Shown: positions 7,634-55,214 of the stretch, piece after piece
Numbering within the stretch: position 1 is the first letter of the stretch
Layout: the number at the start of each line of letters is the position of its first letter
DNA from: Akkermansia muciniphila
GTDB lineage: Bacteria; Verrucomicrobiota; Verrucomicrobiia; Opitutales; Opitutaceae
Direction of reading: 5' to 3'
DNA: 64,000 bases
NCBI GenBank assembly: GCA_945888375.1
Contig: CAMCZZ010000017.1
Span: 1-64,000, forward strand
The notes under the pieces: model-generated
The model's database searches: none
What the model was told of the DNA's origin: nothing
Seen by the model: only the letters and a program-made list of their open reading frames with translations
Translations under genes and position numbers: made by a program

Positions 7634-7650
7634 AAATTTATCCCAATCCG

Positions 7651-8883: not shown

Positions 8884-8900
8884 ACTCCGCCCCGGAGTAA

Positions 8901-8991: not shown

Positions 8992-9019
8992 AAATCCTCT
9001 GCTCCCCGCTTCCTCACCC

Positions 9020-11647: not shown

Positions 11648-11671
11648 CTACCCACCCTCCCTCCCCGCGTA

Positions 11672-14148: not shown

Positions 14149-14158
14149 CCTCATCCCC

Positions 14159-29644: not shown

Positions 29645-32600
29645 TCAACGCGGGGTCACGCTGAGGCGAAAGAAAACCCGCGCGCCATCGATCGGCGCCC
29701 TGACGGTCACCTGCTCGTGCGTAAGGTTCAGCGGCTGCACGGTCACGCCGACCCCGCCGGTTCCGGCCAAGAGCGGAGACCAGGTGATCAGATCGTTGGA
29801 TTTTTGGACCACGAGTTCGAACAAGGTCTCGGCCTCGAGCTGGCGCGGGAAGGAAAACGCCGCCACGGTGGCGGATTCAGCCACGCAAACGGGCCGGGGG
29901 GCGCTGGCCGGATCGAGCGGCAGCCCTCCCTGGATGAACTCAAACACGTTGGCCACTCCATCCTCGTCGGCATCGGCCTCAGGCGCGCCGTTGCCGGCCA
30001 CGTTCAACCCATGCTCGGCGAGAAACGACGTGTAGGCGTCGGGTGGCGGCGCCACCGGCAACGGCTCGTAATCCACGCGCAGGCTGGAGATCGTGACTCG
30101 CGACACGGAGGTGTTGCCCACGTTGCGATAGCCGATGGCGATGGCGTCGAACGCGCCCGCCACGTCCGCCGGCAAGACACCGGACGCCGTGGTGACGGCC
30201 GAGGAGGAGAATATCGCCGCCGCCGTCGTGTCGGTGCCCGCGTGCACGGTGCAACCCAGGGTGAACGCGGCGGCGGCGGAACGCGTGAGCGTGACGGTAA
30301 GCGTGTAGGTCTGGCTGTCGGCGAAGGTCAGCGCCGCGGGCGACGAGGAGGCGGTGCCGATGGCCGTGGCGATCGCGGACGAGCTGGTGCCGGGCACGAT
30401 CAGGGACTGGGAAGCGTTCGAGGCGCCGTTCTGCGCGCCGCGGGCCTCGAGAAGCCCCGTCGCCGAGGCGTTGGCGATGCCCGCGCGGTAACCGCGCCAG
30501 TTCTGCGCGCCGCCGGTGGCGAGCGACGTCGAGGTCGAGACGAGCAGGGAATTGATCAACCCGGTGTGGGGCGACACACCCCCGGAATTGAAAAATCCCA
30601 CGCCCAGGTGGCGGACATTGGTCGGGACAAACACCAGCCGGGCCCGGAGCACGTCGCCGACGGCGGACAGCGTCCGGGGCGTGGCCGCAAAAAGGGCCGC
30701 CGCCTCGACCACGCCGGACGTGGTGATCGGCATGGTCAGATCAAGCGGACGCGCCTCGACCAGCCCGGTCGTGGCGGGATCATCGCCCACGCTGGAGGTG
30801 GAGGCGTTTTTCGACGACATGACAAACCAGTTGGTCGACGTGCCGGAGAGCGCGGGCGAGGCCGCATGGATGGTGTTGCTCGCGAAGGTCGTCGCGAACA
30901 CGCTACCGGCGGAAACCGCGACGGTCAGGGTCGCCGCCGCGCTGGTTGCCGTGCCGAAAGAATTGGTGACCACGACTCGATAGTCGCCCGCATCGCTTGT
31001 CGCCACGGCCGGAAGGGAAAAGGTCGCCAACGTGGCGCCCGGAATCGGCACGGAGCCCTTATACCACTGGTAGGTCAGAGGCGCGGAACCGGCGACGCTG
31101 ACGGAAAATGACGCCGCCTGGCCGGCCGCGACGGTGAGCGCGGCGGGATCGGCGAGGATGCTCGGTGCGGTCGCGAGCACGCTCACCGTGGCGGCCGGCG
31201 ATCGCACGGAACCGTAGGGGTTTCCCAATACCACCTTGTAGACTCCGCCGTCCGCGAGCGATGCCGCGGCAACGACGTAGGTGGCGGTCGTGGCCCCCGC
31301 GATCGGCTCATCGTCCTTGAACCACTGGTAGGTCAAGGGGCCGGTGCCGGAGGCGGTGACGGCCAGGTTCAGGGCGGCGCCGGACGCGACGGTGACGGAG
31401 GCGGGAGCGACGTCGATGACGGGCAGGGGAAAAGCGGGCGCGGCGAGTTCGTTGAGGTAGTTCTCCAGCCGGGTGTAGCCTTCGGAGTCGACCAGGTTGC
31501 GATCCGAGGAATCGGCGGGATTCAAGCCGCGCGCGGTCTCCCAGGCGTCGGGCATTCCGTCGGCATCGGAATCGGACGCGGCGGGGGCGGAAACGAGCGC
31601 GGGCCAGCCGCCGACGTCGGCCTGCGAATCGATAATGCCGGGGATGTTTCCCTTGGAGCCATAAAAGGTCACCGTCCCGTTGGTCACTTCTCCGGCGATG
31701 CGGGTGTCAATCACGTCGCGGGCCGGCAGACGGCAGCCGGCGTAAGCCAGCACCAGCGGAAACGAGGCCTGCGCCGTCTGGGTTACCACGGCCGGGGCGG
31801 CGAAGGGAGTGTCGGTCCGGATGGCCGGGAAGTCGGCGGAGGGGATCACTTGCACGCCACCGTTCCAGTTGTTGGCCGTCACCGCGGTGCTGGCGGTGGT
31901 CCAGTTTCCGGTGATGTGAAAGAGGCTCAGGGTGGCTCCGGTCGACAGGGCGTTGCGGGTGGGCTCGAGGATGCGATAACGGGAAGTGCCGGTGCTGGTC
32001 GCGGGACCGTTTTTATAGGTGTTGTTCACCAGGTTGTGGCGCGCCGGCAGCCCGGTGTCGGTCGGCTCGCCGCCATAGGTCGAGTTCCCGCGCCAGTTGT
32101 AGATCACGTTGTTTCGCATATCCACGAGTTCGCCGTCGGTGTTGTGCGTGCGGGCGCCGTTGAAGCGCGGATTGCGGCTGTCGTGGTGGGCCAGGAGATT
32201 GTGATGAAAAGTGGCGCCGAGGCCGCCCCAGATGCCGCCGTAGCCGTGGGCGCCCTTGCTGTGCACGGAGTCCCGCATGCTTTCGGTGATGAAACACCAC
32301 TGCAGCGTCAGGTTGGTGTTGTCGTAAGTGCTCGAGGTCTCGTCCACCGACCAGGAAAACGAACAGTGGTCGATAATCAGATCGCTACCGTAGCGGGACG
32401 AGAACGCGTCGGTCTCCACGCCGGCGACGTTTCCCAGGCGGACACGCAGGAAACGCAGGATGACGTTGGTCGAGTTGCTGATGTCGAGCGGACGATAGGC
32501 GAGACAGATGCCGTCGCCCGGTGCGGTCTGTCCGGCGATGGTCAGATTGCCCTGCGTGATCCGCAAGGTGGACTGGAGGTAGATCGTCCCGGAGATGGCG

Positions 32601-32896
32601 AAGACCACGGTGCGCGGCGGAGAGGCCGCCGAGCGACCGGTCACACCAGCGCGCAAGGACCCCGGACCGCTGTCGTTGAGATTGGTCACCACGTAAACCT
32701 CGCCGCCGCGCCCGCCGCTGGCGAAGCGGCCAAAACCCTCCGCACCGGGAAACGCCGGCGTCTGCCCGCGTAAGCCTTCGCCGGCTAAAATCGCGATACA
32801 AACCGCGAGGCCCGCCACTAGACGCAACCGGAAAGGAAGGGAAAGATCCCCAGGCACGACTCGCTTCGAAAAAAATACAGCCAAGGGCGTCGACAT
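29645..32896 (-). CDS. Giant secreted pectate lyase (PL1-like) with Ig, novel and C-terminal modules
   Basis: 1083 residues. After a signal segment ending near residue 44, FPGAEGFGRFASGGRGGEVY opens a PL1-like right-handed beta-helix (about 45-450). It contains VTNLNDSGPGSLRAG, IAGQTAPGDGI, LIIDHCSFSWSVDE, ESMRDSVHSKGAHGYGGIWG and FHHNLLAHHDSRNPRFNG. Then follow a DSDADGMPDAWE calcium-type segment, two Ig-like domains (about 500-585 and 586-672), one copy of a domain of unknown function (about 665-943) also found twice in the protein at 40519-44121, and a C-terminal module with DADEDGVANVFEF that ends in ARVFFRLSVTPR. It would cleave pectate at or near the cell surface. It is convergent with the preceding operon. 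Confidence 0.85.
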   Translation of the reverse strand: MSTPLAVFFSKRVVPGDLSLPFRLRLVAGLAVCIAILAGEGLRGQTPAFPGAEGFGRFASGGRGGEVYVVTNLNDSGPGSLRAGVTGRSAASPPRTVVFAISGTIYLQSTLRITQGNLTIAGQTAPGDGICLAYRPLDISNSTNVILRFLRVRLGNVAGVETDAFSSRYGSDLIIDHCSFSWSVDETSSTYDNTNLTLQWCFITESMRDSVHSKGAHGYGGIWGGLGATFHHNLLAHHDSRNPRFNGARTHNTDGELVDMRNNVIYNWRGNSTYGGEPTDTGLPARHNLVNNTYKNGPATSTGTSRYRILEPTRNALSTGATLSLFHITGNWTTASTAVTANNWNGGVQVIPSADFPAIRTDTPFAAPAVVTQTAQASFPLVLAYAGCRLPARDVIDTRIAGEVTNGTVTFYGSKGNIPGIIDSQADVGGWPALVSAPAASDSDADGMPDAWETARGLNPADSSDRNLVDSEGYTRLENYLNELAAPAFPLPVIDVAPASVTVASGAALNLAVTASGTGPLTYQWFKDDEPIAGATTATYVVAAASLADGGVYKVVLGNPYGSVRSPAATVSVLATAPSILADPAALTVAAGQAASFSVSVAGSAPLTYQWYKGSVPIPGATLATFSLPAVATSDAGDYRVVVTNSFGTATSAAATLTVAVSAGSVFATTFASNTIHAASPALSGTSTNWFVMSSKNASTSSVGDDPATTGLVEARPLDLTMPITTSGVVEAAALFAATPRTLSAVGDVLRARLVFVPTNVRHLGVGFFNSGGVSPHTGLINSLLVSTSTSLATGGAQNWRGYRAGIANASATGLLEARGAQNGASNASQSLIVPGTSSSAIATAIGTASSSPAALTFADSQTYTLTVTLTRSAAAAFTLGCTVHAGTDTTAAAIFSSSAVTTASGVLPADVAGAFDAIAIGYRNVGNTSVSRVTISSLRVDYEPLPVAPPPDAYTSFLAEHGLNVAGNGAPEADADEDGVANVFEFIQGGLPLDPASAPRPVCVAESATVAAFSFPRQLEAETLFELVVQKSNDLITWSPLLAGTGGVGVTVQPLNLTHEQVTVRAPIDGARVFFRLSVTPR

Positions 32897-33431
32897 CAGA
32901 AATCAGGATTGGGGGGGGTAACCGAGTCCTAAACTAAGGGGAAACCACGGAACGCGGCAACCTGCACGAAATTCCAATTCCGCCCCCTATCGCAAAGATA
33001 ACGGCGCGCACATCGTTGCGCTCGGCCTTCACGCGACCCGAGCCCACGGCCCCAACCGTCAGGCTGCGCCGGGGACTAATACATCGGGCACCAAACCGTC
33101 AGTGCTAGGCCGACTAGCGCTGCAAAAAGCTCATAAAAGGAAATCCCGAGATGCAGGCTACGTTCCGGAAAATGACACAGCATTATATCCGACATAATTT
33201 TAACGAATCCAATATACCGCCCTACGCACACATCCATTTTGCCTCGAACCTACCGCCCTACGTCGTGGCTGCAATCTTGAGTCGCCGCCACAATTCAACA
33301 ATGAGCACAAAATGTCTAAGCTTTGGCAACAATGCGCGCATAGCGCTATCTTTAAGATCTATCGATTTAATCAATGAAAGGGGAAGGTGTCCGTGACGTT
33401 CAAGTTCGGCGCCGCTTACCCCCCCCACAAA
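32897..33431. other. Divergent promoter region
   Basis: 535 bases between the PL1-like gene (minus) and the PEP-CTERM gene (plus), relatively AT-rich to the right. A short open frame at 33151-33396 has no recognisable features and is not called. Notable words are TACCGCCCTACG at 33215-33226 and again at 33251-33262, and the adjacent palindromes TGCGCGCA and TAGCGCTA at 33333-33348. Segments at 33011-33021 and 33296-33308 match the two halves of the 23147-23170 palindrome. Confidence 0.5.
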
Positions 33432-35408
33432 ATGAATAAACAACTGTCCCGTGATATTACGCGAGGCCGCTTCGTGAAGGCTTCGCTCGCCCTTGGTCTT
33501 CTCGCCACCTTACAAACCCTCGACGCCGCAACCTCATCCTGGTCAGGCACCGCAGGCGCGACCTGGAACAACGCCGGCAACTGGGATGCTCTTCCAGCGG
33601 CCTCCGGCGACTCCTTGGTTTTCGCAGGCACATCTAACCTTGCCAATAGCAACGACTACGTCACCGGCGTGGCTGGTATCACATTTAATAGTGGTGCTGG
33701 AGCATTCACTCTCGGAGGTAATGTGCTCACCGTCGCATCCGGTGGCTCCATCACGAACAACTCCACGAGCGGTCAGACTCTCGCCATGCCGCTGACCAAT
33801 AGCGGCGCCACCACCCTAAACGCGGCTTCGGGCAACCTCACGCTCACTGGTTTACTCGGCGGCGGCTCGCTGGTGATCGACGGCGCCGGCGGAAATACGG
33901 TGACCTTGACACGTGCCGCCAGCAACACCTTCGGCATGGGGGCAACCGTCAATAGCGGCGGCACCTTGGTGCTCTTTAACACGTCCGGAAACGCCCTTTC
34001 CAATTTCGTAACCATCAACGACGGCGGCACGGTAAAGTTGGGCGGCACCTCCATCGATCAGATTCACTTTAATTCCGTCCTCACCCTTAACGGCGCGAGC
34101 GCGCTTTTTGACCTAAACGGGAAAAACGAAGAAGTCGGCAAACTGCTCGGCACCGCCGGAAGCGTCCGAAACAACAATGCGACAACGGCGACGCTGACCA
34201 TTGGTGGCGGCACCAACAACAGTGATTTCAGTAATATTCTCCTCGCCAACGGAACGGGCACCTTGGGGGTGACCACCCGCGCGGTCGCTAACACCTATAC
34301 CTTTGGCGCGGCAAATACCTATACCGGCAAAACTACCCTAGGCGGCACCTCCAACGTTTCAGTCCTCGCCGATGGCGGCGTGGCAAGTTCCATCGGCCAG
34401 TCTACCAATGCCAGCTCCAACCTTGCCATAGGCAACTCGGGCGTTCTGCGCTACACCGGCGCGTCCGCCAGCACTGATCGCAACTTCACCACCGGCACCG
34501 GCTCTGTGATCGAGATCGTAAACGCCGCGACCAACCTCGTGTTAACCGGCACCAGTTTTGGTGCATTCACTAAAACCGGACCGGGCACGCTCACGCTTTC
34601 CGGCAACGTCGCCAACGCGGCGGCCCCCTCCGTTTCCGCCGGCGTGCTGGTGCTAAACGCGCCCGGCGCCAACGCGTTTACCGGCGCCATCACCGTCGCC
34701 AACGGCGGCACCATGCGCCTCGGAGCCGCCAGCACCGGAAACATGATCCACGACAACACCACCTTGGCCGTCAATACCGGCGGCACCTTCGACATGGGTG
34801 GTCAAAGCGAGAAGTTCAAAAGCATCTCCGGCGCAGGCACCTTTATTAATTCCGGCCTGAACCAGTCCACGCTTACGGTCAGCGGATTCAGCGGTAGCAG
34901 CACCTTCGGCGGCGTGATCAGCGGCGATATCGCCCTGACGCACACCGACGCCAGCTCGTCCACGACCCTCAACGGCCTCAACACCTACAGCGGCAACACC
35001 ACGATAAACAGCGCCACCGCGACGTTTACCCTGGGCTCCACCGGCGGCCTTACGTTTTATATAGGCGACAACGGAATCAATAACCAAGTGACCGGTGTTT
35101 CGGGCGCGACCGCCAACTTCAATGGCCGATTCTCCTTCGATTTGTCTTCCGCCGAGACGATCGACGGCTACTCCTGGACCATCGTAAACACCAGCAGCCT
35201 GGTGACTTCTTATGGCGGGACCTTTGTGATCGATGGCTTCACAAACAACGCTGGGGTCTGGAGCAAGACGGATGCGGGCGCGACTTGGACATTCGCCCAG
35301 ACCTCTGGTATACTTAGCGTCAGCACCATACCCGAACCGGCGTCATTCGCCGCCGTGATCGGCTTGGCCGCATTGGGCGCAAGCGGCCTACGTCGACGCC
35401 GACGCTGA
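33432..35408 (+). CDS. PEP-CTERM protein with autotransporter-associated beta-strand repeats
   Basis: 658 residues. The start at 33432 (MNKQLSRDITRGRFVKASLA) gives a signal peptide ending near LDA-ATS; an upstream GTG at 33387 adds 15 residues without a signal character. The body is a Gly/Asn/Thr-rich parallel beta-helix made of repeats such as FTKTGPGTLTLSGNVANA and NGGTMRLGAAST. The C-terminus is a PEP-CTERM signal: IPEPASF, a hydrophobic stretch AAVIGLAALGASGL and an Arg cluster. Such signals are cut by an exosortase for surface attachment; no exosortase gene is in the window. A strong terminator follows. Confidence 0.88.
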   Translation: MNKQLSRDITRGRFVKASLALGLLATLQTLDAATSSWSGTAGATWNNAGNWDALPAASGDSLVFAGTSNLANSNDYVTGVAGITFNSGAGAFTLGGNVLTVASGGSITNNSTSGQTLAMPLTNSGATTLNAASGNLTLTGLLGGGSLVIDGAGGNTVTLTRAASNTFGMGATVNSGGTLVLFNTSGNALSNFVTINDGGTVKLGGTSIDQIHFNSVLTLNGASALFDLNGKNEEVGKLLGTAGSVRNNNATTATLTIGGGTNNSDFSNILLANGTGTLGVTTRAVANTYTFGAANTYTGKTTLGGTSNVSVLADGGVASSIGQSTNASSNLAIGNSGVLRYTGASASTDRNFTTGTGSVIEIVNAATNLVLTGTSFGAFTKTGPGTLTLSGNVANAAAPSVSAGVLVLNAPGANAFTGAITVANGGTMRLGAASTGNMIHDNTTLAVNTGGTFDMGGQSEKFKSISGAGTFINSGLNQSTLTVSGFSGSSTFGGVISGDIALTHTDASSSTTLNGLNTYSGNTTINSATATFTLGSTGGLTFYIGDNGINNQVTGVSGATANFNGRFSFDLSSAETIDGYSWTIVNTSSLVTSYGGTFVIDGFTNNAGVWSKTDAGATWTFAQTSGILSVSTIPEPASFAAVIGLAALGASGLRRRRR

Positions 35409-35439
35409 TCCGGCGGGAGAGACTTCCGAATCAAAGTGC

Positions 35440-35472
35440 AGCGGTCCCGCCCGAAATGCGGGACCGCTTTTG
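35440..35472 (+). terminator. Rho-independent terminator after the PEP-CTERM gene
   Basis: A perfect hairpin with arms GCGGTCCCGC (35441-35450) and GCGGGACCGC (35458-35467), a 7-base loop and an extra A-T closing pair, followed by TTTTGT. It lies 32 bases after the stop codon. Confidence 0.9.
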
Positions 35473-35550
35473 TCTTGGCGCCATCATCGTGGTGTTCGCG
35501 TGCCCATTATACAGTTAGCCCTTGGTCAGTTAGCAAAGTAATACAATCTT

Positions 35551-38500
35551 ATGAAACTAAAACAGCGTTCCGTATTCTGTTTAGGATTTTTATCTTCCAT
35601 GCTCTTTATGGGCGGGGTGTCCGGTGTGGCCCAGGAACGGCCGGCCGTCTTTGTAAAGTATTCCACCAGCCAAGTGGCGGCAGGCACGACGCCAACCACC
35701 GCGCCGGTCGCAACGATCGCTGCCCCCGGGTCCGGCTGGGACTATTCCGCCGCCGCTCCCTTTTCCGGGACCACGTGGAATGTTATCCAGCGCCCCAATC
35801 CTGGAATTCCGTCGGGCGCCTTGAATGGAGCCATTGGTGTTTATCCGGTCAACTCGGCCAACAATATAGCACTTGCCTCGCCTGCCGGTGATGCGACGTC
35901 GGTTCGCCTCACCGTGTCCTTGAACATCGCGGATCTGGAGGCCAACAGTTCCACCCGTGCCGAGCCGAACACTGGAACGGGCGGCAACAGCAGCCTCGCT
36001 CCTGCCGGTCTCATGAATCAGGCTTGGCGCATCTTCCGAGGAGGCAACAGCGTCGTCCACCAATTCTCGGGACTCCCGGCGGGCGCGAATTATTATGTTT
36101 ACTGTTATGCGTCCACGACGACCGCAGGCCAAGGATCCCGTTTCACGCTGGATGCGGCAAACGTCCCGGGAGGGGACGGCATCACCACCCGCTTCCTCGA
36201 GACTCGGGGCGGCAATTCAGGCAATGTCTTTATCAACAATGGCACTTCCATCGCGCCGAACACGCCTGCCGTCGTGGACCAAGCCAGCAAGGCCACAGAT
36301 ACCACCACCTGGGGGCGCTTCCATGCCGTGGTAAACGCCTCGGGCGGCCTAGTGCTTCGTAATTCGAAAAATCCCGCCAACGGCGTGAATTTTTTCCAAG
36401 GTTTTCAGCTTATACCCTTTCCCCTCCCCGCCATCACCCAACAACCCAGCCCAACGGTGATCGGGTCGAGCGGCGGCGTGGTCATACTCACGGTGGCCGC
36501 CACCGGTGATGGCGCTCTTTCCTACCAATGGCGCAAAGGCGGCGTCGCCCTATCGGACAGCGCCACGCTTTCCGGCTCCAATACCGCCACGCTCACTTTG
36601 TCGAACGCCACCGAGGCGGATAGCGGCTCTTACGACGTCCTGGTCAGCAATCCCGGCGGTTCACTCCCCAGCTCGGCCTCTGTTATCACCATAAGCAACG
36701 AGGCGATCGCCCCGTCGATCGTCACACCACCCGCCGGCGCGACCGGCTTAAGCGGCCAAAACGCGAGTTTCTCCATCCAAGCTCTCGGAACCTCTCCGAT
36801 CACTTATCAATGGCAGAAGAGTTTAAACAATTCGGACTTCACCGATATCATCAACGCCACGGGCTCCGTCCTGACCCTTACCGGGCTCTCCACGGCGGAC
36901 GCCGGTTACTATCGGGTGATAATCACGAACTCCGTCAGCTCCGTGACCAGTGCTTCAGCGGCCTTGGTGGTTGCCCCGGTCATCACGACTCCGCCGGCCA
37001 GCGCCGTCGTCGCCACGTCCGGAAACCACACTCTCTTGGTATCGGCGGACGCGGGCCAGGGCTCGCCCGAGGCCATCACTTATGTTTGGAAATTCAACGG
37101 CACCACCGTCACCAACGGCGGCGCCTACTCGGGTGCCACGTCGGCCAATCTCAGCGTCACCGGTTTCGGCGCCTCGCATTCCGGTTACTACACGGTGACC
37201 ATCTCCAACTCGGCCGGCGCCGTAACCTCCGCGCCCGTCTATGTCGGAGTGCCCACCAGCCAATCGGTGACTTTCGCACCGGGCAACAACGCTACGGGCA
37301 TCGCCGTCGATCAACAGCTGCGCATCGTGCTGGACTCGACCCCGCGCCTGGGCAAATCGGGCGTGCTGCGCGTGCACGACGCTGAAAACGACGCCGTGGT
37401 CACAACGGTGGATATCTCCAGCTTCGTCACCTACGCGCCGGGTAACTCGACCGCCATCATACCCAATGCGGCTATCCGCCCGATGCAGGGATCTTCGGGA
37501 GGCACCACGCTGGCCACGACCAACTATTACTACACACCCATCGCCATTTATGGCAACGAGGCGTGGATCACCCTGCCCATCCGGCTTTCCTACGCCAAGA
37601 CCTACTACGTCACCACCGACGACGCCCTGCTGCTCGACTCGACCAACGCCGCGCTGCCCGCCGTGACCAGCCCGACCGCGTGGCGCTTCTCCACCAAAGC
37701 GGCCGCGCTTGAAACCCCCACCGAATCGACCGGCCCGACCACTCTCACGCTCGGTTTGGACGGAACGGGCGATTTCGCCACGTTGCAAGCGGCCTTCGAC
37801 TGGATCCCGTTGAACAACACCCTCGAGCGCACCATAGAGGTGCGGCCTAGTGTGTATAGAGATAATGCCACGCTCGGTTTCGGGCGCAACAAAGTGCGGA
37901 TCATCGGCCAGGGAACCAAACGCACCGATGTGCAGTTCATCTATCCCTACGCCTATTTTGCGCCGCCCACCAGCGTTTCCACCGCCGGATCAGTTCGTCT
38001 CGAAGGTGACGACGTCACCGTCCGCAATCTCACCCTAGATAATCTCATTTACTACGACTACAGTCCCACCGGTCGTCCGGAGAACGTGAATGCGGCCCTC
38101 AATGGTGCCACCAACACGCTTCATACCACGGGTAAACGCATCGTGTTCGACAATGTCTTGGTAAAGGGCGGTCAGGATACCTATTGGGGCAACAAGGGAA
38201 TATCGTATTTCTACAACTGCGAAGTCTGGGGCACGGTGGACTTCATCTATGGCGCCGCCCTCGCCGTTTTCGACCGTTGCACGATCGTCGAACTGCGCTC
38301 CACCGGGGGGCCGATCTGCGCCCCCTACACCGCATACGCCCAGCCCTACGGAGAGGTTTTCCTGAACTGCAGCTTCCCCCGCGCGCTGGTCGCCAATGGC
38401 TACCCGTATGATGTCGGACTCGGCACCACCACCTTCATGCGGCCCTGGGGCCAGGATGGCCACACCGCGATCATCAACTGTGAACTCGGCGCCCACTTCA

Positions 38501-40029
38501 GCACAAAAGGCTGGAGCGACTGGAGCGGACGGGAAAACACCTGCCGTGCCATCGAATACGGCAACACCGCCATCGGCGGCGGCGCCACTTCAACGCCCGC
38601 CCAGCGCCAGGCCGCCGGCGCCTACTGGCTCAATACCGTGGACCCGGACTATACCACATCTTCGATGTCGCCGACCGACGCATTGTTGGTCTCGCCCGGA
38701 GGCAACGGAAACCGCATCGCCGTCACGATCAATCCCGCCGATTATACACTCCCGGCCATTTTCGGCCACGCCTACTTCGGACTCAATGGCTGGATGCCGG
38801 TGGTCGAAGATTCGATCGCTCCCGCCATCACGACTCCCCCATCTTCTCGCCGGGTCGCGATAGGCGATGGAGTCACCTTTAGCGTCGAGGCCACCGGCAG
38901 CCCGGTGCTGACCTATGAGTGGCGCAAAAACAACGTTCCCATTCCCGCCGCCCTTTCCTCCAGCTATACCATCCCCTCGGTTCAGGCCGGCGACACCGCG
39001 GCATACACTTGCGTGGTTCGAAACGGTGCCGGCGAAGCGACTTCAGCCGCCGCGCAACTCACCGTCTTGTCTCCATTTGCACTTTGGGCGGACTCCTATG
39101 CCCTCGACGGCACCGTCGCAGGCTTTGCCAGTGCGGATTCCGACGGCGACGGGGTCGCCAACCTGCTCGAATATGTGCTCGGAGGGGATCCGGCCGAGCG
39201 CGATTCAAATATCCTACCTCAGGTGACCCTGGTGGATGCTGTCGATGGCCGACACCTCGTTATGGAGTATGACCGGGCGATCACGGCATCCGCCATCGCC
39301 AACGTGATCGAGACTTCGTCCGACCTCGCTTCTTGGGCCGTCCGCACCCACGGCGTGGACGCCGAGATCGAGATTCTGCCGCTTCTTGGCATCGCCCTCA
39401 ACGTGGACTGCAATAGCTCCGCGGGAAATAACTACACCGGCCTCGCCGTCGCGCCCGGGTCCGGCACCTCATGGAACAGTTTTGTGTCTCCCGGTGCTGG
39501 TGCTCCGACGGGCACCCTCACCGGCGTTTTGGATAGCTCCGGTGCGGCCACCACGAGCAGCGTGACCCTAACCAGCTCCGGTTCGGACATCTATGTTTGG
39601 AACGATGCAAGCACGGGCGCGCCGAACCCGACGCTACTCATGCAAGATTACCTCTTCGGTAACACCTACACGGTAACCATGAACGGCCTGCCGCAAGGCG
39701 ACTACCTGCTTTACGTTTACGCCCACGGCAACGCGGACAACCAAACGTCCCTCGTCACGCTCGCCGCCGGTAATGGCGGAGGAAGCAAAACCACCGCCAC
39801 TTCCGGCACCACCACCTTCCGGGACGCATTCGCGACCGGGGCGGAGGGTATTGCCTACGTCAAGTTTGCGCCCACCGTCGGGGCGTCCGGATCGCTCCAG
39901 TTCAGTTGCGGCAACTACCTCAACGGCTTTCAATTGGTGCAGCAAATCAACCCAGGATTTGAGCGTGTGCGCGTCACCATTCCCTACTCCGACAGTAAGC
40001 TTTTTGTTCGGTTGCGGGTAACCGAATGA
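35551..40029 (+). CDS. Giant secreted CE8 pectinesterase with Ig domains and duplicated beta-sandwich
   Basis: 1492 residues. Signal peptide about 1-27. The domains, in order, are: a beta-rich domain (about 30-289); three Ig-like domains (about 291-385, 389-475, 476-568); an Ig/SbsA-like domain (about 570-716); CE8 pectin methylesterase (about 731-1080, with LGLDGTGDFATLQAAFD, GGQDTYWGNKG, GTVDFIYGAA and MRPWGQ); and a fourth Ig-like domain (about 1091-1175). The C-terminal module begins FALWADSYALDG with DSDGDGVANLLEYVLGG and ends in DSKLFVRLRVTE. A second copy of the N-terminal beta-rich domain (about 1280-1469, NCBI-type family unknown to me) is inserted inside that C-terminal module. It acts outside the cell on methylated pectin. 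Confidence 0.85.
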   Translation: MKLKQRSVFCLGFLSSMLFMGGVSGVAQERPAVFVKYSTSQVAAGTTPTTAPVATIAAPGSGWDYSAAAPFSGTTWNVIQRPNPGIPSGALNGAIGVYPVNSANNIALASPAGDATSVRLTVSLNIADLEANSSTRAEPNTGTGGNSSLAPAGLMNQAWRIFRGGNSVVHQFSGLPAGANYYVYCYASTTTAGQGSRFTLDAANVPGGDGITTRFLETRGGNSGNVFINNGTSIAPNTPAVVDQASKATDTTTWGRFHAVVNASGGLVLRNSKNPANGVNFFQGFQLIPFPLPAITQQPSPTVIGSSGGVVILTVAATGDGALSYQWRKGGVALSDSATLSGSNTATLTLSNATEADSGSYDVLVSNPGGSLPSSASVITISNEAIAPSIVTPPAGATGLSGQNASFSIQALGTSPITYQWQKSLNNSDFTDIINATGSVLTLTGLSTADAGYYRVIITNSVSSVTSASAALVVAPVITTPPASAVVATSGNHTLLVSADAGQGSPEAITYVWKFNGTTVTNGGAYSGATSANLSVTGFGASHSGYYTVTISNSAGAVTSAPVYVGVPTSQSVTFAPGNNATGIAVDQQLRIVLDSTPRLGKSGVLRVHDAENDAVVTTVDISSFVTYAPGNSTAIIPNAAIRPMQGSSGGTTLATTNYYYTPIAIYGNEAWITLPIRLSYAKTYYVTTDDALLLDSTNAALPAVTSPTAWRFSTKAAALETPTESTGPTTLTLGLDGTGDFATLQAAFDWIPLNNTLERTIEVRPSVYRDNATLGFGRNKVRIIGQGTKRTDVQFIYPYAYFAPPTSVSTAGSVRLEGDDVTVRNLTLDNLIYYDYSPTGRPENVNAALNGATNTLHTTGKRIVFDNVLVKGGQDTYWGNKGISYFYNCEVWGTVDFIYGAALAVFDRCTIVELRSTGGPICAPYTAYAQPYGEVFLNCSFPRALVANGYPYDVGLGTTTFMRPWGQDGHTAIINCELGAHFSTKGWSDWSGRENTCRAIEYGNTAIGGGATSTPAQRQAAGAYWLNTVDPDYTTSSMSPTDALLVSPGGNGNRIAVTINPADYTLPAIFGHAYFGLNGWMPVVEDSIAPAITTPPSSRRVAIGDGVTFSVEATGSPVLTYEWRKNNVPIPAALSSSYTIPSVQAGDTAAYTCVVRNGAGEATSAAAQLTVLSPFALWADSYALDGTVAGFASADSDGDGVANLLEYVLGGDPAERDSNILPQVTLVDAVDGRHLVMEYDRAITASAIANVIETSSDLASWAVRTHGVDAEIEILPLLGIALNVDCNSSAGNNYTGLAVAPGSGTSWNSFVSPGAGAPTGTLTGVLDSSGAATTSSVTLTSSGSDIYVWNDASTGAPNPTLLMQDYLFGNTYTVTMNGLPQGDYLLYVYAHGNADNQTSLVTLAAGNGGGSKTTATSGTTTFRDAFATGAEGIAYVKFAPTVGASGSLQFSCGNYLNGFQLVQQINPGFERVRVTIPYSDSKLFVRLRVTE

Positions 40030-40518
40030 TATCACGCCCCAAATCCGATTAAATCCATCGCCAAGCCCTGACCAAACAATTCCGGGTGTCGCCAAGGGAT
40101 GTGGCGGGACACCCGGCGGAGCGGGGCTTGGCGTTCATTTTTATACACGTTCCGAACGCCGGGAAGACCGTCAAATAGCATGTCCTGCCCCGTTTGGCCG
40201 AACGGCCATCTTGTGCAACCCCATCCCCTGAACCGCACCAAGCCCACCAATCTCGACTGATCTAAAGTGGAGCCTCGTGGACAAAAATTCGAAAACAAGT
40301 CGTTAGATCGGGATAATTCAACAATGCGAACAAGCGGGCCGCTTGTCGCCACGTTCCCGGCGACGTAATCCTCATCTCGCTTCGTTTACCCTTCAGCCCC
40401 CGACCCCACGACAGTTCGCCGCCGAAAGCCTCCCCGAAGATGCGTCTTCGTATCCGTATCTTCGTCACCAATTGTCCGAATTTTATTCCGTAATTAGTTC
40501 CCAGAAAAGCCTTTTATC
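40030..40518. other. Intergenic region between two giant-protein genes
   Basis: 489 bases with no supported gene; a minus-strand open frame at 40032-40352 lacks any recognisable character. It holds the terminator structure at 40081-40146, a hairpin TGGCCG-AA-CGGCCA at 40195-40208, and the word AATTCAACAATG at 40315-40326 that also occurs before the PEP-CTERM gene. The right end, around 40480-40500 (GAATTTTATTCCGTAATTAG), is AT-rich and may contain the promoter. Confidence 0.5.
40081..40146 (+). terminator. Complex stem-loop terminator candidate
   Basis: Two alternative pairings are visible: CGGGTGTC (40083-40090) with GACACCCG (40108-40115), and GCCAAG (40091-40096) with CTTGGC (40127-40132), the latter followed by GTTCATTTTTAT. 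The T-rich end after the outer stem suggests termination of the 1492-aa gene. The competing stems could also act as a switch, but there is no evidence for a ligand. Confidence 0.55.
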
Positions 40519-43500
40519 ATGAAACCCCAAACCCCCAAATCCATCCTCCGAGCCACCACCATGGCTGCGCTCGCCTGGCTCACCGCATCCGACGGTATCG
40601 CCGCGACCGTGTTTGAGACCACTTTCGCCAGCGACGTCATCGTCTCGGCAACTACCGCTGCGGGCACCCTCACCCCGACTTCGGCCAACTGGTATTTAAT
40701 GTCCAACAAAGACGCCCGCGGCGGCAGCAGCGTCAACGGGACGGGCGGCCTCACCATCAGCCACACCTCGTCCACCTCGGCGGTTGCCGAAGCCACCGCC
40801 CGCCTGACGACCGCCCCGATCGAGCTGAGAGACGTTAACGATTACATCGAAGCCAGTGGCACCTTTTACACCGATCGCGTCCTGAATTTCGTCATCGGCC
40901 TATATAATTCCGGCGGGGTCGAGCCCTTGGTCACGGGCGCCAATGGCACCACCCTGCTCGCCAACTCCGCACTGGTTTCGAGCATCACGGGACCGGTCGG
41001 AGGCACGCTAGGCTGGAAGGGATATCGCGCCCAGGTAAGCAACGCCTACAGCGGCACCGCCCCCAACCAGGTCACGATCGGTTCCACCACCGGCAGCATC
41101 CAAGCCCGCCAGGCCCAGACCGGTGCAAGCATGAACTACCAAGCCTACGATCTCCTCAGTGTAGGCACCGGCGGCTTCAATTCGCCCACCGCCATCAGCA
41201 TCGGCACGGTTCCGGCGTCGGCCACATCCTTGGTCTGGGCCAACGGTTTCGCCCAAGAATACCGTTTCACCTACCGAATCACCCGCTCCTCCTCGACCGC
41301 GTTTCTGATCGCCTACACCATCAAGGATGCGACCGATGCCGTCCTTTTCTCCACCAGCGGCACCACCACGGCCGCCACCGCGCTTCCGTCTGCCATTACC
41401 AGCGCCTTCGATAGCTTCGCGTTCGGCATGCGCAACAACTCGGTGAATGCGATCGGCTCGGTTTCCACCATCAGCCTCACCCAGTTCAAGGTCACCGGAC
41501 AAAACGCCGACATCGCCCGCGTCGTCACCCCGCCTCAGAACCAAAATCTCGTCCCCGGCCAAGCCGCCTCGCTCACCGTTTCCGCCTCCGGCGCCGGCAC
41601 CCTTACGTATCAATGGTTCAAGGACACCTTCGCGATCCCCGGTGCCACCAACGCCAGCCTCCCCATCGTCTCCGCGTCGTCCGCCGACATCGGCTCTTAC
41701 ACCGTCGTCGTGCGCAACGCCTTCGGTTTCGAAACCAGCGCCGCCGCCAACGTGAACGTGGTCGAAGCCTCCGCTCCCGTTTTCACTCTCCAACCCGAGA
41801 ACCAGTCGGTGAATGCGGGCACGACCCTCACCCTCGCCTCGACCGCCTCCGGCGCACCCACCCCCACCTTCCAGTGGTATAAAAACAACACCCTCATCCC
41901 CGGCGCGACCCTCGCCACCTACACCGTTCCTTCTGTCACCACCGACAACGCGGGTGAATACAAGGTCATCGCCACGAACAGCCAGGGCTCCGTCACCAGC
42001 GATGTCGTGACCATCACGATCGTCACCGCCACCCCCTCCATCAGCGCCCAACCCGCCCCCGTGACCGTGAACGTCGGCGCAGCGATCAACCTCGAAGTCA
42101 CCGCGACCGGCATCCCCACCCCGACCTACCAGTGGTTCAAAAACAACGTCGCCATCGATGGTGCCACCGCCGCCACCTACACCATCACCAGCGCCACCAC
42201 CGCGGACATCGGCAACTACTCCGTGGACGTCATCAACTCGATCGGCACCTTGCGCAGCGCCGACGCCGGGGTGACCGTAACCGTCGTCCCGCCCTCCGTC
42301 ACTACCCCGCCCGGCAACGTAACCGTGGTGTATGGCAACAGCACCACGCTGACCGCGGCCTACGCGGGCTCCTTGCCCCGCACCTACCAGTGGTATCGAA
42401 ACAGCACGCTCATCCCCGGAGCCACCGGCTCGTCCTACACCATCACCTCGGCCACCCTGGCGGATGCCGGCGACTATTACGTCGTCGTCTCGAACGAGGA
42501 TCCGACCAACGCGACCTCGGCCACGGCGGTCGTCACCGTGCTGTTCGCCAACGAATCCGCCGTGCTGAACACCGACTTTACGACCTCGGCCTTCCACAAC
42601 GCCGACGCGCCCATCACCGCGACCTCGACCAGCTGGTGGGTCCTTTCCAGCAAGAACAACGCCTTGTCTTCCACCATCGGCGATGATGCCGCCACACTCG
42701 AAGTGGTCGAAGCCCGGCCCTTGACCCTGAAGTTCAACAGCACCACCGGCTCCAGCATCGTCGAAACTGCCGCGCGCTTCTCATCCACCCCGGTGAGCCT
42801 GGCCAACTCCGGCGACTACCTCCGCCTCACCGCCAACCTGCGAGGCAAAAACCTGCGCATCCTCGCCTTCGGACTCTTCAATTCAGGCGGCATCAATCCC
42901 TTCCCGCTTTGGGGCAGCCCGACGGTCGACATCATCGCCGCAGGAGCCAGCAACAACGCGGCTGTCGGCAAGGGAACCCAGGGTTGGGTCGGCTATCGCT
43001 CCTCGATCCAGGCCACCAGCAGCGCCGGCGATGTCGGCACGCGCCCGGCCCAAACCACCAGCACGAGCAATCGCGGCAATGAACTCCTGATGCCCCCGAA
43101 CAGCACCGGCGCCGCCCACGGCGAGCCGGCCGGCGTTCAGGTCGGCACCGTGCCCTCCTTGGGAGTCAACGCCGCCTTCGTCAACGACACCGACTACACC
43201 CTGGTCTACACCATCGCTCGCAGCGGCTCGGACCAATACACGATCAACTACCAGCTCTTCGCCGGTCTCACCGCCACGGGGAGTCCGCTCTACGCCTCCG
43301 GCGCCACCACGACCGCGGCAGGAACCCTTCCCTCCGAGGTTACCCAGACCTTCGACGCCGTTGCCGTCGGGTTCCGCAACATGGACACCACCGTCATCCC
43401 CGAAATCACCATTAGCAGCCTGCGCATCGACCTCGGGACCGCCGTCTCACCTGTTGCGCCGTCGTTCACCACCCACCCGACCGCCCAAACCCTCTCCATC

Positions 43501-44121
43501 GGCGATCCCCTCACCCTCACTGCCTCCGCCAGCGGCGCCCCCACTCCCTCCTACCAGTGGTATAAGGATGACGTCATTATCGACGGAGCCACCGGGTCGA
43601 CCTATTCGATTGCTTCGGTCGTGACCGGCAACGCCGGCAGCTACAAAGTCGTCGCCACCAACGCCGTCGACAGTGCCACCAGTAACGCCGCCATCGTTAC
43701 GGTCGGAAGCGTGGTTCTCTCGCCTTACGAAACCTGGGCCGACGCCGAAAATCTAACCGTGGGTTTTGACGACGGCGCCTCCCAAGACCCCGACAAGGAC
43801 GGGGTCGTCAACCTCCTCGAATTCGCCTTGGGCGGCACCCCCCTCTCCGCCGCCTCGGCACCCGCGCCTGTCCTCGCCCGCAACGGCGCCAACCTCACCC
43901 TCACGTTCGACGTGAAGACCGTGGCTTTGACCCAGTTCGACGTTTCCGCCGAACTCACGTCCGATCTCGTCACCTGGGCCACAGCCGTCCACGGCACCTC
44001 CGGGGTCACCATCGTCTCCACCCCCCTGGATGGCTCGACCAACCGCGTGGTCGTCACCTTCCCCGCCGGCCCCGCCCGCACCTTCGCCCGCGTTCGCGTC
44101 AGCCCCATCGCCACGCCGTAA
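40519..44121 (+). CDS. Giant secreted Ig-repeat protein with two copies of an unknown domain
   Basis: 1200 residues with a signal peptide (about 1-29, ending GIAA). Domain order: unknown domain copy A (about 30-330), four Ig-like domains (about 335-415, 417-503, 504-590, 591-678), unknown domain copy B (about 680-974), a fifth Ig-like domain (about 980-1068) and the C-terminal module (about 1070-1200) with DPDKDGVVNLLEFALGG and ending FARVRVSP. The unknown domain is recognised by FNSGG-type, GYRA-type and AFD..A.G.RN motifs and also occurs in the PL1-like protein. No catalytic domain was seen. It may be a surface or matrix protein that binds pectin (inference). Confidence 0.8.
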   Translation: MKPQTPKSILRATTMAALAWLTASDGIAATVFETTFASDVIVSATTAAGTLTPTSANWYLMSNKDARGGSSVNGTGGLTISHTSSTSAVAEATARLTTAPIELRDVNDYIEASGTFYTDRVLNFVIGLYNSGGVEPLVTGANGTTLLANSALVSSITGPVGGTLGWKGYRAQVSNAYSGTAPNQVTIGSTTGSIQARQAQTGASMNYQAYDLLSVGTGGFNSPTAISIGTVPASATSLVWANGFAQEYRFTYRITRSSSTAFLIAYTIKDATDAVLFSTSGTTTAATALPSAITSAFDSFAFGMRNNSVNAIGSVSTISLTQFKVTGQNADIARVVTPPQNQNLVPGQAASLTVSASGAGTLTYQWFKDTFAIPGATNASLPIVSASSADIGSYTVVVRNAFGFETSAAANVNVVEASAPVFTLQPENQSVNAGTTLTLASTASGAPTPTFQWYKNNTLIPGATLATYTVPSVTTDNAGEYKVIATNSQGSVTSDVVTITIVTATPSISAQPAPVTVNVGAAINLEVTATGIPTPTYQWFKNNVAIDGATAATYTITSATTADIGNYSVDVINSIGTLRSADAGVTVTVVPPSVTTPPGNVTVVYGNSTTLTAAYAGSLPRTYQWYRNSTLIPGATGSSYTITSATLADAGDYYVVVSNEDPTNATSATAVVTVLFANESAVLNTDFTTSAFHNADAPITATSTSWWVLSSKNNALSSTIGDDAATLEVVEARPLTLKFNSTTGSSIVETAARFSSTPVSLANSGDYLRLTANLRGKNLRILAFGLFNSGGINPFPLWGSPTVDIIAAGASNNAAVGKGTQGWVGYRSSIQATSSAGDVGTRPAQTTSTSNRGNELLMPPNSTGAAHGEPAGVQVGTVPSLGVNAAFVNDTDYTLVYTIARSGSDQYTINYQLFAGLTATGSPLYASGATTTAAGTLPSEVTQTFDAVAVGFRNMDTTVIPEITISSLRIDLGTAVSPVAPSFTTHPTAQTLSIGDPLTLTASASGAPTPSYQWYKDDVIIDGATGSTYSIASVVTGNAGSYKVVATNAVDSATSNAAIVTVGSVVLSPYETWADAENLTVGFDDGASQDPDKDGVVNLLEFALGGTPLSAASAPAPVLARNGANLTLTFDVKTVALTQFDVSAELTSDLVTWATAVHGTSGVTIVSTPLDGSTNRVVVTFPAGPARTFARVRVSPIATP

Positions 44122-44288: not shown

Positions 44289-45086
44289 ATGCAAACCCCC
44301 ACCTCGCGCCCCGCGACCCGTAGCGACGCGTTCACCCTGATCGAGTTGCTCACCGTAATCGCGATCATCGGAATCCTTGCCGCCATTATCATCCCCACCG
44401 TGGGATCCGTCCGAAACAAAGCCAAATCGCTGAAATGCACCCAACAGCTCAGGACTTGGGGCCAGGCGGTTCGAGTCTTCACCAACGATAACAAGGGCGA
44501 TATCGCCCTGACCATGAACGTCGGCACCCCGACCAACAATGAGGGCCCCGGCAAACTCTACTCCTCCTACCTGGGCTCGGCCCGCGTCTCCGGCGAAAGC
44601 ATCGGCGTGACCGGCAATTCGATGGACTCCATGGATTACTTCTCCACCTGCCCCACCCTCGACCGCACGAACGATACTTCAGGTGGTGCCGTAAACACTC
44701 GCCGCAGCTACTCCTTCATCAAACCGGACGGCGCAAAACGCATCACCGGCGGCAACAAATTCGGCCGCACCAACATCACTGTCGATTACTACAATCTTGG
44801 CAGCGCCAGAGGCTCAAGCCGACTGATCTTGATGATCGAGGCCAAAGACCCGGCGACTTCCGGCTGCTTGGACTGCACCTCGCTTTCCTCCTTCGGCACC
44901 GCGATTGCGACCAACGTTAAACCTATCCTGGTAAAAACGGAGGCCGCCATCGAGGTCCGCCATAACGGCGTGGTCAACGTGTTGTTCCTCGACGGTTCCG
45001 TCCGCCAGATGCGCCTCACTGAACTCGACATCAATAGCATGCCCCCCGCCACCCGCGCCCAAGCTGCACCGCTGTTCACGCTTTAA
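44289..45086 (+). CDS. Prepilin-like protein with H-X9-DG motif
   Basis: 265 residues. The type IV prepilin/pseudopilin N-terminus is A14-FTLIELLTVIAIIGILAAI, with Glu at mature position 5 and one hydrophobic helix. The residue before the cleavage site is Ala where Gly is usual. The body is globular. Near the end H225 and D235-G lie in RHNGVVNVLFLDGSV, the H-X9-DG motif found in very numerous pseudopilin-like proteins of Verrucomicrobiota and Planctomycetota. Its role is unknown; an inner-membrane anchored surface protein handled by a type II secretion-like apparatus is likely. It is flanked by terminators on both sides, so it forms its own transcription unit. Confidence 0.85.
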   Translation: MQTPTSRPATRSDAFTLIELLTVIAIIGILAAIIIPTVGSVRNKAKSLKCTQQLRTWGQAVRVFTNDNKGDIALTMNVGTPTNNEGPGKLYSSYLGSARVSGESIGVTGNSMDSMDYFSTCPTLDRTNDTSGGAVNTRRSYSFIKPDGAKRITGGNKFGRTNITVDYYNLGSARGSSRLILMIEAKDPATSGCLDCTSLSSFGTAIATNVKPILVKTEAAIEVRHNGVVNVLFLDGSVRQMRLTELDINSMPPATRAQAAPLFTL

Positions 45087-45159: not shown

Positions 45160-46476
45160 ATGCATCCCCGCCTCCGCTTTGCTTCCCTGAGCCTGCTCAC
45201 CCTCGCGGCCGCCTCCATCCTCCGCGCCTCCCCCGACGTCCGCCCCGCCCTGCCCGACATCCCCGACCGCGTGTTCCGGATCGCCGACTACGGCGCCATC
45301 CCGAACGACGACCTCGACGACACCTCCGCCTTCACCAAAGCCTTCGCCGCCGTGTCCGCCGCCGGCGGCGGCCGCCTCGTGGTCGCGCCCGGCGACTACC
45401 ACACCGGCCACCTCAAACTCGTCGGCCGCCTCGACCTCCACCTGGAGAAAGGCGCGCGCCTCGTGTTCTCCACCGACCCCGACGCCTACCGCATCCAAGA
45501 TCGCAAATTCAACCCGCTCGTCGCCGCCACCGGCGTGGATGACCTCGCCATCACCGGCGAAGGCGTGCTCGACGGCAACGGCCAGGCCTGGTGGACCGAG
45601 GCACGCGCCTTTAAGGACGCCGCCCGCGCCCGCGGCGACGCCAACGAGGAGATCGGCCGCCCCCGCCTGCTGATCATCGACAAGGCCAGACGCGTGCTCG
45701 TCCAGGGCGTCACCCTGACCAACTCCCCCCAGTTCCACTTCATACCCTCCCGCTGCGAGGACGTCACCATCCGCGACGTGACCGTCCGCGCCCCCCACAC
45801 CGCGCCAAACACCGACGGCATCGATCCCTCCGCCAGCCGCCGCGTGCTGATCGCCGGCTGCGTGATCGACACCGGCGACGACAACATCGCGATCAAGTCC
45901 GGCAAACCCGAGCACGGTCCGGTCGAGGACATGCTGGTCGAGCACTGCACCTTCCTCGGCGGCCACGGCATGTCCATCGGCAGCGAGACCTACGGCGGCG
46001 TGCGCAACCTCACCGTCCGCCACTGCACCTTCGAGGGCACCGAGGCCGGCATCCGCATGAAATCCGCCCGCGGCCGCGGCGGTCTGTCCGAGAATCTGAC
46101 CTACCACGACCTCACGCTGCGCAACGTCGAAATCGCGATCCAGATCACCAGCTTCTACCCCAACAAAACCACGCCCAAACCCGGCGTCGCCGACCCCGTG
46201 CCCGCCACCCGCGATCCCCGCACCCCCGCCTGGAAAAACATCGTCATCCGCGACGTCCGCTCCACCGGCGGCACCAAGTCCGCCGGTATCATCATCGGCC
46301 TTTCCGACGAGCCGGTGACGAACATCACGATGGAAAACGTTTTCATAGAATCCCCGGTCGGCTTGCGCGTGGCCAACGCCCGAGGCATCTCCCTCAAAAA
46401 CGTCGAAATAAAAGTCGCCAAGGGCGAACCTTGGCTAGTCGAGGCTTCCGCCGAAGCCCCCCATGTGCTTCCCTGA
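45160..46476 (+). CDS. GH28 polygalacturonase
   Basis: 438 residues, secreted (signal peptide about 1-24). The fold starts FRIADYGAIPNDDLDDTSAF and VVAPGDYHTGHLKLVGRLDL. Catalytic motifs: NTDGIDP, DTGDDNIAIKSGK, GGHGMSIGSE and IRMKS. Compared with the two other GH28 domains in the window, the GHG motif is followed by Met rather than Gly and the RxK motif reads RMK; both are common family variants. It is followed 25 bases later by the UxaE-like gene. The close terminator upstream implies its own promoter or read-through. Confidence 0.92.
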   Translation: MHPRLRFASLSLLTLAAASILRASPDVRPALPDIPDRVFRIADYGAIPNDDLDDTSAFTKAFAAVSAAGGGRLVVAPGDYHTGHLKLVGRLDLHLEKGARLVFSTDPDAYRIQDRKFNPLVAATGVDDLAITGEGVLDGNGQAWWTEARAFKDAARARGDANEEIGRPRLLIIDKARRVLVQGVTLTNSPQFHFIPSRCEDVTIRDVTVRAPHTAPNTDGIDPSASRRVLIAGCVIDTGDDNIAIKSGKPEHGPVEDMLVEHCTFLGGHGMSIGSETYGGVRNLTVRHCTFEGTEAGIRMKSARGRGGLSENLTYHDLTLRNVEIAIQITSFYPNKTTPKPGVADPVPATRDPRTPAWKNIVIRDVRSTGGTKSAGIIIGLSDEPVTNITMENVFIESPVGLRVANARGISLKNVEIKVAKGEPWLVEASAEAPHVLP

Positions 46477-46501
46477 GCGCCAATTCCGTCCTATCACCAC
46501 C

Positions 46502-50754: not shown

Positions 50755-51098
50755 GCGGGCTGGACCGGAGCAGTCTGACCGGCACCTTGCCGACAATAAA
50801 AATCCTGGCCTACGCGCTGGATGTGATCGCGAAGACCCTCGTGATCGATCTGGTGGAGAATCGAAAGGTCTATGGTGTAGGGCAGAAGCAAATCATCCAG
50901 CTCACCCATGATTCTGAGCAAATCCCGATAACCCAGACCGCTACCCACGAGCGTTAGGTCTATGTCCGAACCGTTCTTGTAGTTCCCCTTGGCCCGTGAG
51001 CCATAAAGGATGGCCTTCTCCACTTCGGGATGCCCGGCCAGCACACCGCCGATCTTTTCCACCGTCTTTTCCGACAATCCAAATCGCGCGGCGCTCAT
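50751..51098 (-). CDS. mntA: MntA-like minimal nucleotidyltransferase antitoxin
   Basis: 115 residues. The MNT motif GSX10DXD is exact: G33-S34, ten residues (RAKGNYKNGS), D45-I-D47. In characterised HepT-MntA pairs the MNT protein adds AMP groups to a Tyr of the HEPN toxin and silences it. The toxin gene lies directly upstream with a four-base overlap, and the stop codon overlaps the hsdR start. The pair is thus tightly coupled to the restriction gene. Function is inferred from motif and gene order. Confidence 0.88.
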   Translation of the reverse strand: MSAARFGLSEKTVEKIGGVLAGHPEVEKAILYGSRAKGNYKNGSDIDLTLVGSGLGYRDLLRIMGELDDLLLPYTIDLSILHQIDHEGLRDHIQRVGQDFYCRQGAGQTAPVQPA

Positions 51099-51508: not shown

Positions 51509-51553
51509 GGGTGGAAAGGTGGCGGGGGCGCGGGTTGAAGGAAATAGCAAAGC

Positions 51554-52780: not shown

Positions 52781-52819
52781 AAAAGCGCCTTGATGTTGCC
52801 CAGCACCTCGGCGCTCTCG
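52777..52819 (-). pseudogene. Remnant of the 3' end of hsdM in front of hsdS
   Basis: Read on the minus strand, this segment encodes ESAEVLGNIKALL followed by TGA, and the TGA overlaps the hsdS ATG. The intact hsdM ends with ESAEVLGNIKQLL plus a few residues. The DNA blocks 52789-52819 and 53690-53720 match in 30 of 31 bases, and the one difference is synonymous (GAG/GAA). This is best explained as the old end of hsdM, left behind when the KilA-N gene was inserted. Confidence 0.8.
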
Positions 52820-52833
52820 GTTTTCCGTGGCTT

Positions 52834-55135: not shown

Positions 55136-55214
55136 GGGTGGGAAAAAGGAGACGCAATCGGGCGAGGGCTGGCGGGGTGACAAGCTACGGTGCAGGGCAA
55201 GCGCCCGCGCCGCC

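Follow-up and report, generated by a model that had tools for sequence, protein, structure and literature searches.

The first 64,000 nucleotides of contig CAMCZZ010000017.1 (C17:1-64000), from a 3.2-Mb genome of 39 contigs assigned to Akkermansia muciniphila (GCA_945888375.1; family Opitutaceae), raise the question of what is done by a secreted domain that recurs there in three copies, one appended to a pectate lyase-like enzyme and two within a 1200-residue protein. This whole stretch is referred to here as the window. A sequence-only reading had described the copies as homologous and apparently undescribed, and had suggested a carbohydrate-binding or wall-targeting role. On balance, we favor the interpretation that the domain is a secreted, non-catalytic and exchangeable jelly-roll module, similar to concanavalin A (ConA), that binds pectin or a pectin-derived glycan. 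The copies and their host proteins are:

29645-32896, minus strand: 1083-residue pectate lyase resembling polysaccharide lyase family 1 (PL1-like), comprising a catalytic part, two immunoglobulin (Ig)-like domains, a domain copy and a C-terminal element (open reading frame, NCBIfam PelZ, Pfam Ig)
31592-32773, minus strand: PL1-like catalytic region of this enzyme, covering residues 42-435 (stretch matched by NCBIfam NF041900)
30920-31423, minus strand: two Ig-like domains separating the catalytic part from the domain copy (Pfam Ig_2 and I-set within residues 492-659)
30065-30892, minus strand: domain copy of the lyase, residues 669-944 (alignment, blastp, profile match with an expectation value (E) of 4e-134, AlphaFold model)
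40519-44121, plus strand: 1200-residue protein with two domain copies, five Ig-like stretches and a C-terminal element (open reading frame, five Pfam Ig_3 matches)
40618-41499, plus strand: first copy of the 1200-residue protein, directly after a signal peptide recognized by eye (profile match E 2e-116, AlphaFold model)
41527-42567, plus strand: Ig-like region separating the two copies (Pfam Ig; division by eye)
42568-43437 (hidden Markov model boundary 42571-43437), plus strand: second copy of the 1200-residue protein (blastp, profile match E 5e-142)

The homology of the three copies is borne out at each of these places. All lie in open frames and align nearly end to end at 29-39% identity: in pairwise blastp comparisons, with E-values computed on the three-sequence set, the lyase copy is 38.7% identical to the second copy of the 1200-residue protein (E 1e-62) and 36.8% to the first (E 3e-45), while the latter two share 29% identity with each other (E 2e-35). 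The three-copy alignment contains 55 invariant columns and displays the landmark motifs originally listed for the domain. A profile built from the three copies matches four of the 17 candidates scored in the genome, namely the window copies and a fourth at C1:278667-279497 (E 6.6e-29) that was not part of the profile input, giving four copies in total; the frame of this fourth copy has a signal peptide and a PEP-CTERM-like tail (by eye). Chance likeness among low-complexity secreted sequences is ruled out by the near end-to-end alignment and by the restriction of profile matches to four places in the genome.

To place the family among known ones, Pfam-A and NCBIfam were searched with 25 of its members at E up to 1, which is the scope of the results on family membership given here. 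Five Pfam-A families (E 0.035-0.64) and three NCBIfam families (E 0.067-0.11) each matched one of the 25 members; these were taken as chance matches, no family gathering more than one member and the best E-values being 0.035 and 0.067. A sequence search of the PDB up to E 10 likewise gave a single chance match (E 2.4), and no known family was found in Pfam, NCBIfam or the PDB, these searches having returned chance-level matches only. In particular, none of the members matched the Pfam lectin families, the Pfam alginate-lyase families (PL7/PL14) or the NCBIfam PEP-CTERM and choice-of-anchor families; in the stand-alone copies, the PEP-CTERM-like tail, recognized by eye, lies beyond the domain. 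Neither library thus yielded the match to a known carbohydrate-binding or choice-of-anchor family that the sequence-only reading had named as a result that would speak against it. A survey of titles and abstract openings on the family, its cultured relative and pectin-linked modules, with subscription papers and preprints outside its scope, found no article on the domain.

Structure prediction, proposed at the outset as a check, assigns a fold to this sequence family. AlphaFold2 was given 20 sequences from the window and its relatives. The model of the lyase copy has a mean predicted local distance difference test score (pLDDT) of 81.8 and a predicted template modeling score (pTM) of 0.85, and that of the first copy of the 1200-residue protein a pLDDT of 74.6 and a pTM of 0.81, with its first 21 residues below 50; both are almost entirely β-structure. 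Foldseek searches of the PDB with the lyase-copy model retrieve a tepary bean lectin (E 5e-7), further L-type lectins, PL7 and PL14 alginate lyases and TtX122B, and the second model retrieves a legume lectin (E 1e-5), PL7, PL14 and TtX122B, at modest TM-scores of at most 0.47 among the best 50 matches for each model. VIA-align of the lyase-copy model gives Z-scores of 12.1-13.3 over 168-193 residues with root-mean-square deviations of 3.1-4.3 and 7-13% identity for the best 50 of 1000 chains, of which the top two are partner chains of α-amylase complexes and most others are legume lectins or ERGIC-53; 463 of the 1000 chains reach Z 8 or above. Absence of a family from the VIA-align results was not used as evidence. 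These comparisons give good support to a predicted ConA-like, two-sheet jelly roll in both modeled copies. The description of the domain as undescribed consequently holds for the sequence family, which is unnamed in Pfam-A and NCBIfam, but not for the fold, which is very common; the domain looks like an unnamed family of a well-known fold with a likely ordinary role.

Several known systems resemble the domain to differing degrees. Legume and L-type lectins (ConA-like proteins, ERGIC-53) are alike in the predicted jelly roll, but their identity to the domain is 7-13%, Pfam detects no match, and the domain is bacterial and appended to pectin enzymes. The Laminin_G_3 (PF13385) and GH43_C2 (PF17851) domains are also ConA-like and occur on proteins of the same locus; however, those regions match their Pfam models, whereas the domain studied here matches neither. 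CBM77 and other pectin-binding modules have a role like that proposed for the domain, and no Pfam match to them was found at E up to 1. The X122 modules (TtX122A/B), Cip1 and PL20 glucuronan lyase are alike in being jelly-roll modules of large secreted carbohydrate-related proteins with an arginine conserved on one face (PMC10916295); TtX122 structure 8q2a is at Foldseek ranks 12 and 22 for the two models, at 12 and 7% identity. According to that paper, TtX122A/B derive from redox proteins of a shipworm symbiont, two jelly rolls were solved with a conserved arginine patch, and neither clear activity nor significant binding to walls could be shown for them; X122 differs from the domain in its conserved histidine, phenylalanine and methionine and in its redox-protein architecture (PMC10916295).

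Conservation within the family points to a candidate binding surface. In the 25 members, which reach down to 24% identity, L75, G99, W132, G134, Y135, R151, Q154 and G254 (numbered from the lyase copy of the domain) are invariant, and F3, L100, P108, Y196, D249 and R256 nearly so. R151 and R256 should face outward, because they alternate with core-type positions in the strands of the model, while Y135 and Y196 appear, from the sequence, to be in phase with hydrophobic strand positions. The putative site would comprise the outward-facing W132, R151, Q154 and R256 of the lyase copy, a combination of an aromatic residue with two arginines and a glutamine that would suit an acidic sugar polymer; the two arginines could pair with galacturonate carboxylates.

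The association of the domain with pectin enzymes is strong. It was assessed on 28 strongly matching genes with surroundings at hand, all of which, those of the window excepted, came from whole-genome searches with the domain profile rather than from a search near pectinases. Two fragments at contig ends in one genome (L087 and L088, G589) were counted as one gene by assumption; weak matches in G196 and G717 (E 7e-4 to 4e-6), G482, the remote copies of G019 and G500 (L052, L089, L090) and the second matches of G453 and G455, which a frame-level scan at E 0.01 did not return, were left out. A pectin enzyme lies in the same frame in 13 of the 28 genes and adjacent in another 13, together 26/28. 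The in-frame cases comprise the lyase in seven genomes of the genus. Outside it, the domain is N-terminal to Ig domains and a carbohydrate esterase family 8 (CE8) domain in L049, PL1 in L051, both CE8 and PL1 in L083 and L084, CE8 with glycoside hydrolase family 28 (GH28) in L088, on a contig that holds only the second half of the domain, or a PL1-like lyase in L050, which is detected by phmmer only, with no lyase match in Pfam or NCBIfam. Adjacent cases comprise six two-copy genes next to the lyase, among them the gene of L032, of which a contig end leaves one copy visible. To these are added the window's two-copy gene next to a pectinesterase, the genus's four stand-alone genes, each with a PL1-like lyase gene as neighbor, a copy beside three GH28 genes (L048), and L086, from another genus, beside a frame that encodes a CE8 pectinesterase together with a PelX-like part whose match stays below the cut-off. 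The two exceptions are L047 and L085, the latter truncated by a contig end. Independent cases are fewer than 26 because many genes are orthologous; by our own grouping, there are about ten independent architectures. Under the usage in CAZy, a carbohydrate-binding module (CBM) is a discrete domain within a carbohydrate-active enzyme with shown carbohydrate binding, and the first part of this definition describes the 13 of 28 genes in which the domain is in frame with PL1-like, PL1, CE8 or GH28.

Distribution across genomes follows the same direction. The three-copy profile matches eight of 57 genomes (own included), among them seven of 15 in the genus; the lyase domain of L027 (CAMCHD010000051.1) is 96% identical to that of the window, and near relatives by domain include Verrucomicrobia bacterium IMCC26134, whose genome is complete, and Opitutaceae metagenome-assembled genomes. 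With at most 6-10 candidates scored per genome, so that the counts are lower bounds, the wider profile A4 matches at least 16 of 252 family genomes, in 7 of 49 genera, and at least 6 of 387 genomes in a phylum sample, and profile A3 at least 6 of 384 in a class sample. Pectinesterase (PF01095) is present in 126 of the 252 family genomes. In the genus, where seven genomes are 77-86% complete, it occurs in 7/7 domain-positive and 0/8 domain-negative genomes (p 1.6e-4 by a Fisher test, here and below computed irrespective of kinship). Across the family it occurs in all 13 genomes whose match is strong (E of 1e-20 or lower) versus 113/239 others (p 9e-5), outside the genus in 6/6 versus 113/231 (p 0.015), and in 14 of all 16 matching family genomes (p 0.0016). 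In some genomes, the pectinesterase is part of the domain gene itself.

Two further groups of sequences were observed at the margin of the family. Remote relatives with PEP-CTERM-like tails (L052:9087-10154, L089:8923-10173, L090:9097-10107) lie near LacI-like regulators (by eye) and perhaps represent a version of the module that serves other glycans. A giant minus-strand frame of G426 (L086 frame 2-11845; L063/L086) contains a different jelly-roll-like region near the motif RDTWQDG (by eye), ahead of Ig, pectinesterase and PelX-like parts, which may represent a sister family.

A tree of 29 copies bears on a possible movement of the domain between proteins. Separate groups are formed by the lyase copies of five genomes, by the N-terminal copies of two-copy proteins together with a copy fused to RCC1 repeats, by two sets of C-terminal copies, by stand-alone copies and by copies from other genera. 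Recent tandem duplication is not supported as the source of the copies, since the window's three fall into three groups, each with copies from other genomes. The lyase domains of G014 and G002 group with the C-terminal copy of the two-copy protein of G006 (support 99/97). In the catalytic part, these two lyases share 78-79% identity with the window lyase, compared with 71-75% in G006, G010 and G011, whereas their appended domain is 39-40% identical to its window counterpart versus 67-96% in the other four genomes. From these sequences, the pattern fits an exchange of binding modules, a consistency short of proof.

Homology, predicted fold, recurrence with pectin enzymes and exchange were all computed, and from them we infer the binding, the ligand and the site. 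The putative role proposed from the lyase fusion has become likelier through the lectin-like predicted fold, the fusions to pectin enzymes in other genera and the exchange. In the lyase, the domain would keep the catalytic part on its pectin substrate. In the 1200-residue protein, in which the Pfam scan detects no catalytic family, two copies on a rod of Ig domains would form an adhesin of the surface or matrix, capturing or cross-linking pectin, and could bind two chains, or a chain and the cell surface. Through its PEP-CTERM-like tail, the fourth copy would play this part at the cell surface and could tether pectin there.

A number of observations weigh against pectin binding. A ConA-like fold is no guarantee of binding, given the lack of significant wall binding by TtX122A/B (PMC10916295). 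The kinship ignored by the Fisher tests also counts here, and pectin can be used without the domain, because 113 of the 239 family genomes lacking a strong match have pectinesterase. Two of the three genomes with weak matches, G019 and G500, have no pectinesterase match; their remote copies (E about 1e-7 to 3e-8) adjoin genes that match GH42 or GH5 weakly or not at all. The copy at L047:6859-10296 (G010) is fused to Ig-like domains and RCC1-type repeats, and no PL1-like or CE8 match was found within its 20 kb. Finally, the C-terminal element of the G014 and G002 lyases differs too (35-36% identity versus 57-90% in the other four genomes), so that the exchange extends beyond the domain and perhaps takes in the entire C-terminal half.

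Some of these observations would be accommodated by a structural or protein-protein module, in which the jelly roll packs on Ig domains or a surface matrix as a spacer, oligomerization or display element and has no glycan ligand. This alternative, unlikely in our estimation yet deserving serious weight, agrees with the usual company of Ig-like domains or a PEP-CTERM-like tail, with the fusion of one copy to RCC1 repeats and another to autotransporter-type repeats, and with the absence of significant wall binding by the TtX122 domains of the same fold (PMC10916295). A spacer, however, is not expected to follow the presence of pectinesterase across the genus, nor to keep an outward-facing arginine and invariant tryptophan and glutamine at about 24% identity, and the Ig-rich pectinesterase at 35551-40029 manages without the domain (no profile match). 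A lectin-like module that simply accompanies these loci and recognizes a non-pectin glycan, such as an algal polysaccharide or an exopolysaccharide of the cell itself, is improbable: this reading draws on the remote relatives with PEP-CTERM-like tails in genomes without pectinesterase and on the link of PEP-CTERM sorting to exopolysaccharide (PMC1569441), but, apart from L047 and L085, which is truncated, the strong members found in five family genera and those of G158 and G340 accompany pectin enzymes.

PL7 and PL14 lyases use a catalytic set of arginine, glutamine, histidine and tyrosine, and two conserved arginines with a glutamine are of the kind able to neutralize a uronate carboxylate. 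The domain could thus be conceived as a new polysaccharide lyase family for pectic uronates, with charge neutralization by R151, Q154 and R256, two catalytic domains in the 1200-residue protein and surface enzymes in the PEP-CTERM-like copies; this is very improbable, for although PL7 and PL14 rank among the top structural matches for both models and the family alignment has conserved columns of arginine, glutamine and tyrosine, identity to these lyases is about 10%, Pfam gives no match, the 25 members have no invariant or nearly invariant histidine column, Y135 and Y196 appear to be in phase with hydrophobic strand positions, and the domain is often fused to complete pectin enzymes that make a further lyase superfluous.

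The genomic surroundings of the host genes have the following features:

35551-40029, plus strand: 1492-residue Ig-rich pectinesterase, the gene directly preceding the 1200-residue protein (Pfam Pectinesterase E 3e-25)
8984-11647, plus strand: GH88 and GH28 in a single 887-residue frame (Pfam)
13838-15133, plus strand: pectinesterase (PF01095 match at 14240-15094)
24843-26522, plus strand: pectinesterase (PF01095 match at 25584-26492)
19189-20835, minus strand: GH43 with its own C-terminal ConA-like domain (Pfam)
46463-48355, plus strand: tagaturonate epimerase UxaE of uronate catabolism (Pfam E 5e-7, above its cut-off)
44289-45086: prepilin-like gene (methylation-motif pattern), with counterparts beside domain genes at L031:7535-8383, L048:3-995, L049:8007-8906 and L090:10111-10845

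The GH88/GH28 and GH43 proteins, the two further pectinesterases and the tagaturonate epimerase around the hosts mark a pectin-degradation neighborhood. The lyase itself matches NCBIfam PelZ over residues 42-435 with E 6e-30 and 104 bits against a cut-off of 840, and Pfam Pectate_lyase_4 weakly (E 0.059); because PF00544 gives no match above its cut-off for the window lyase, the kinship rests on the sub-cut-off PelZ match and, for the relatives, on phmmer with the window lyase. The GH88-GH28 frame at 8984-11647 is an apparent enzyme fusion for pectin oligosaccharides, and 15483-19061 encodes a 1192-residue protein with two Laminin_G_3 stretches and Ig-like domains. This protein shares with those at 29645-32896 and 40519-44121 a C-terminal element with a DxDGxxNxxE-like stretch (resembling thrombospondin type 3 repeats, by eye) and an FxRLxV-like end, which may be a sorting or anchoring signal. 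A prepilin-like gene, identified by the pattern of its N-terminal methylation motif, adjoins the domain gene in 5 of 27 stretches scanned and is possibly a surface-display or export partner; PF07963 has 32 matches in the genome. Type I restriction-modification genes (HsdR and HsdM, 48418-55183) adjoin the pectin locus.

Few pectin-binding modules are known, and a family that tracks pectin enzymes across genera lends itself clearly to trial as a pectin probe. Many regions in the large, secreted, Ig-rich enzymes of Verrucomicrobia are unassigned, and a profile of the family would help to annotate such proteins. Should the 1200-residue protein prove to catch pectin without catalysis, Verrucomicrobia would have their own equivalent of the glycan-capture proteins of other phyla. 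The main interest lies in the recurrent link to pectin degradation together with a testable candidate binding site: a lectin-shaped domain of freshwater Verrucomicrobia that probably helps to hold pectin enzymes, or the cell, on plant pectin.

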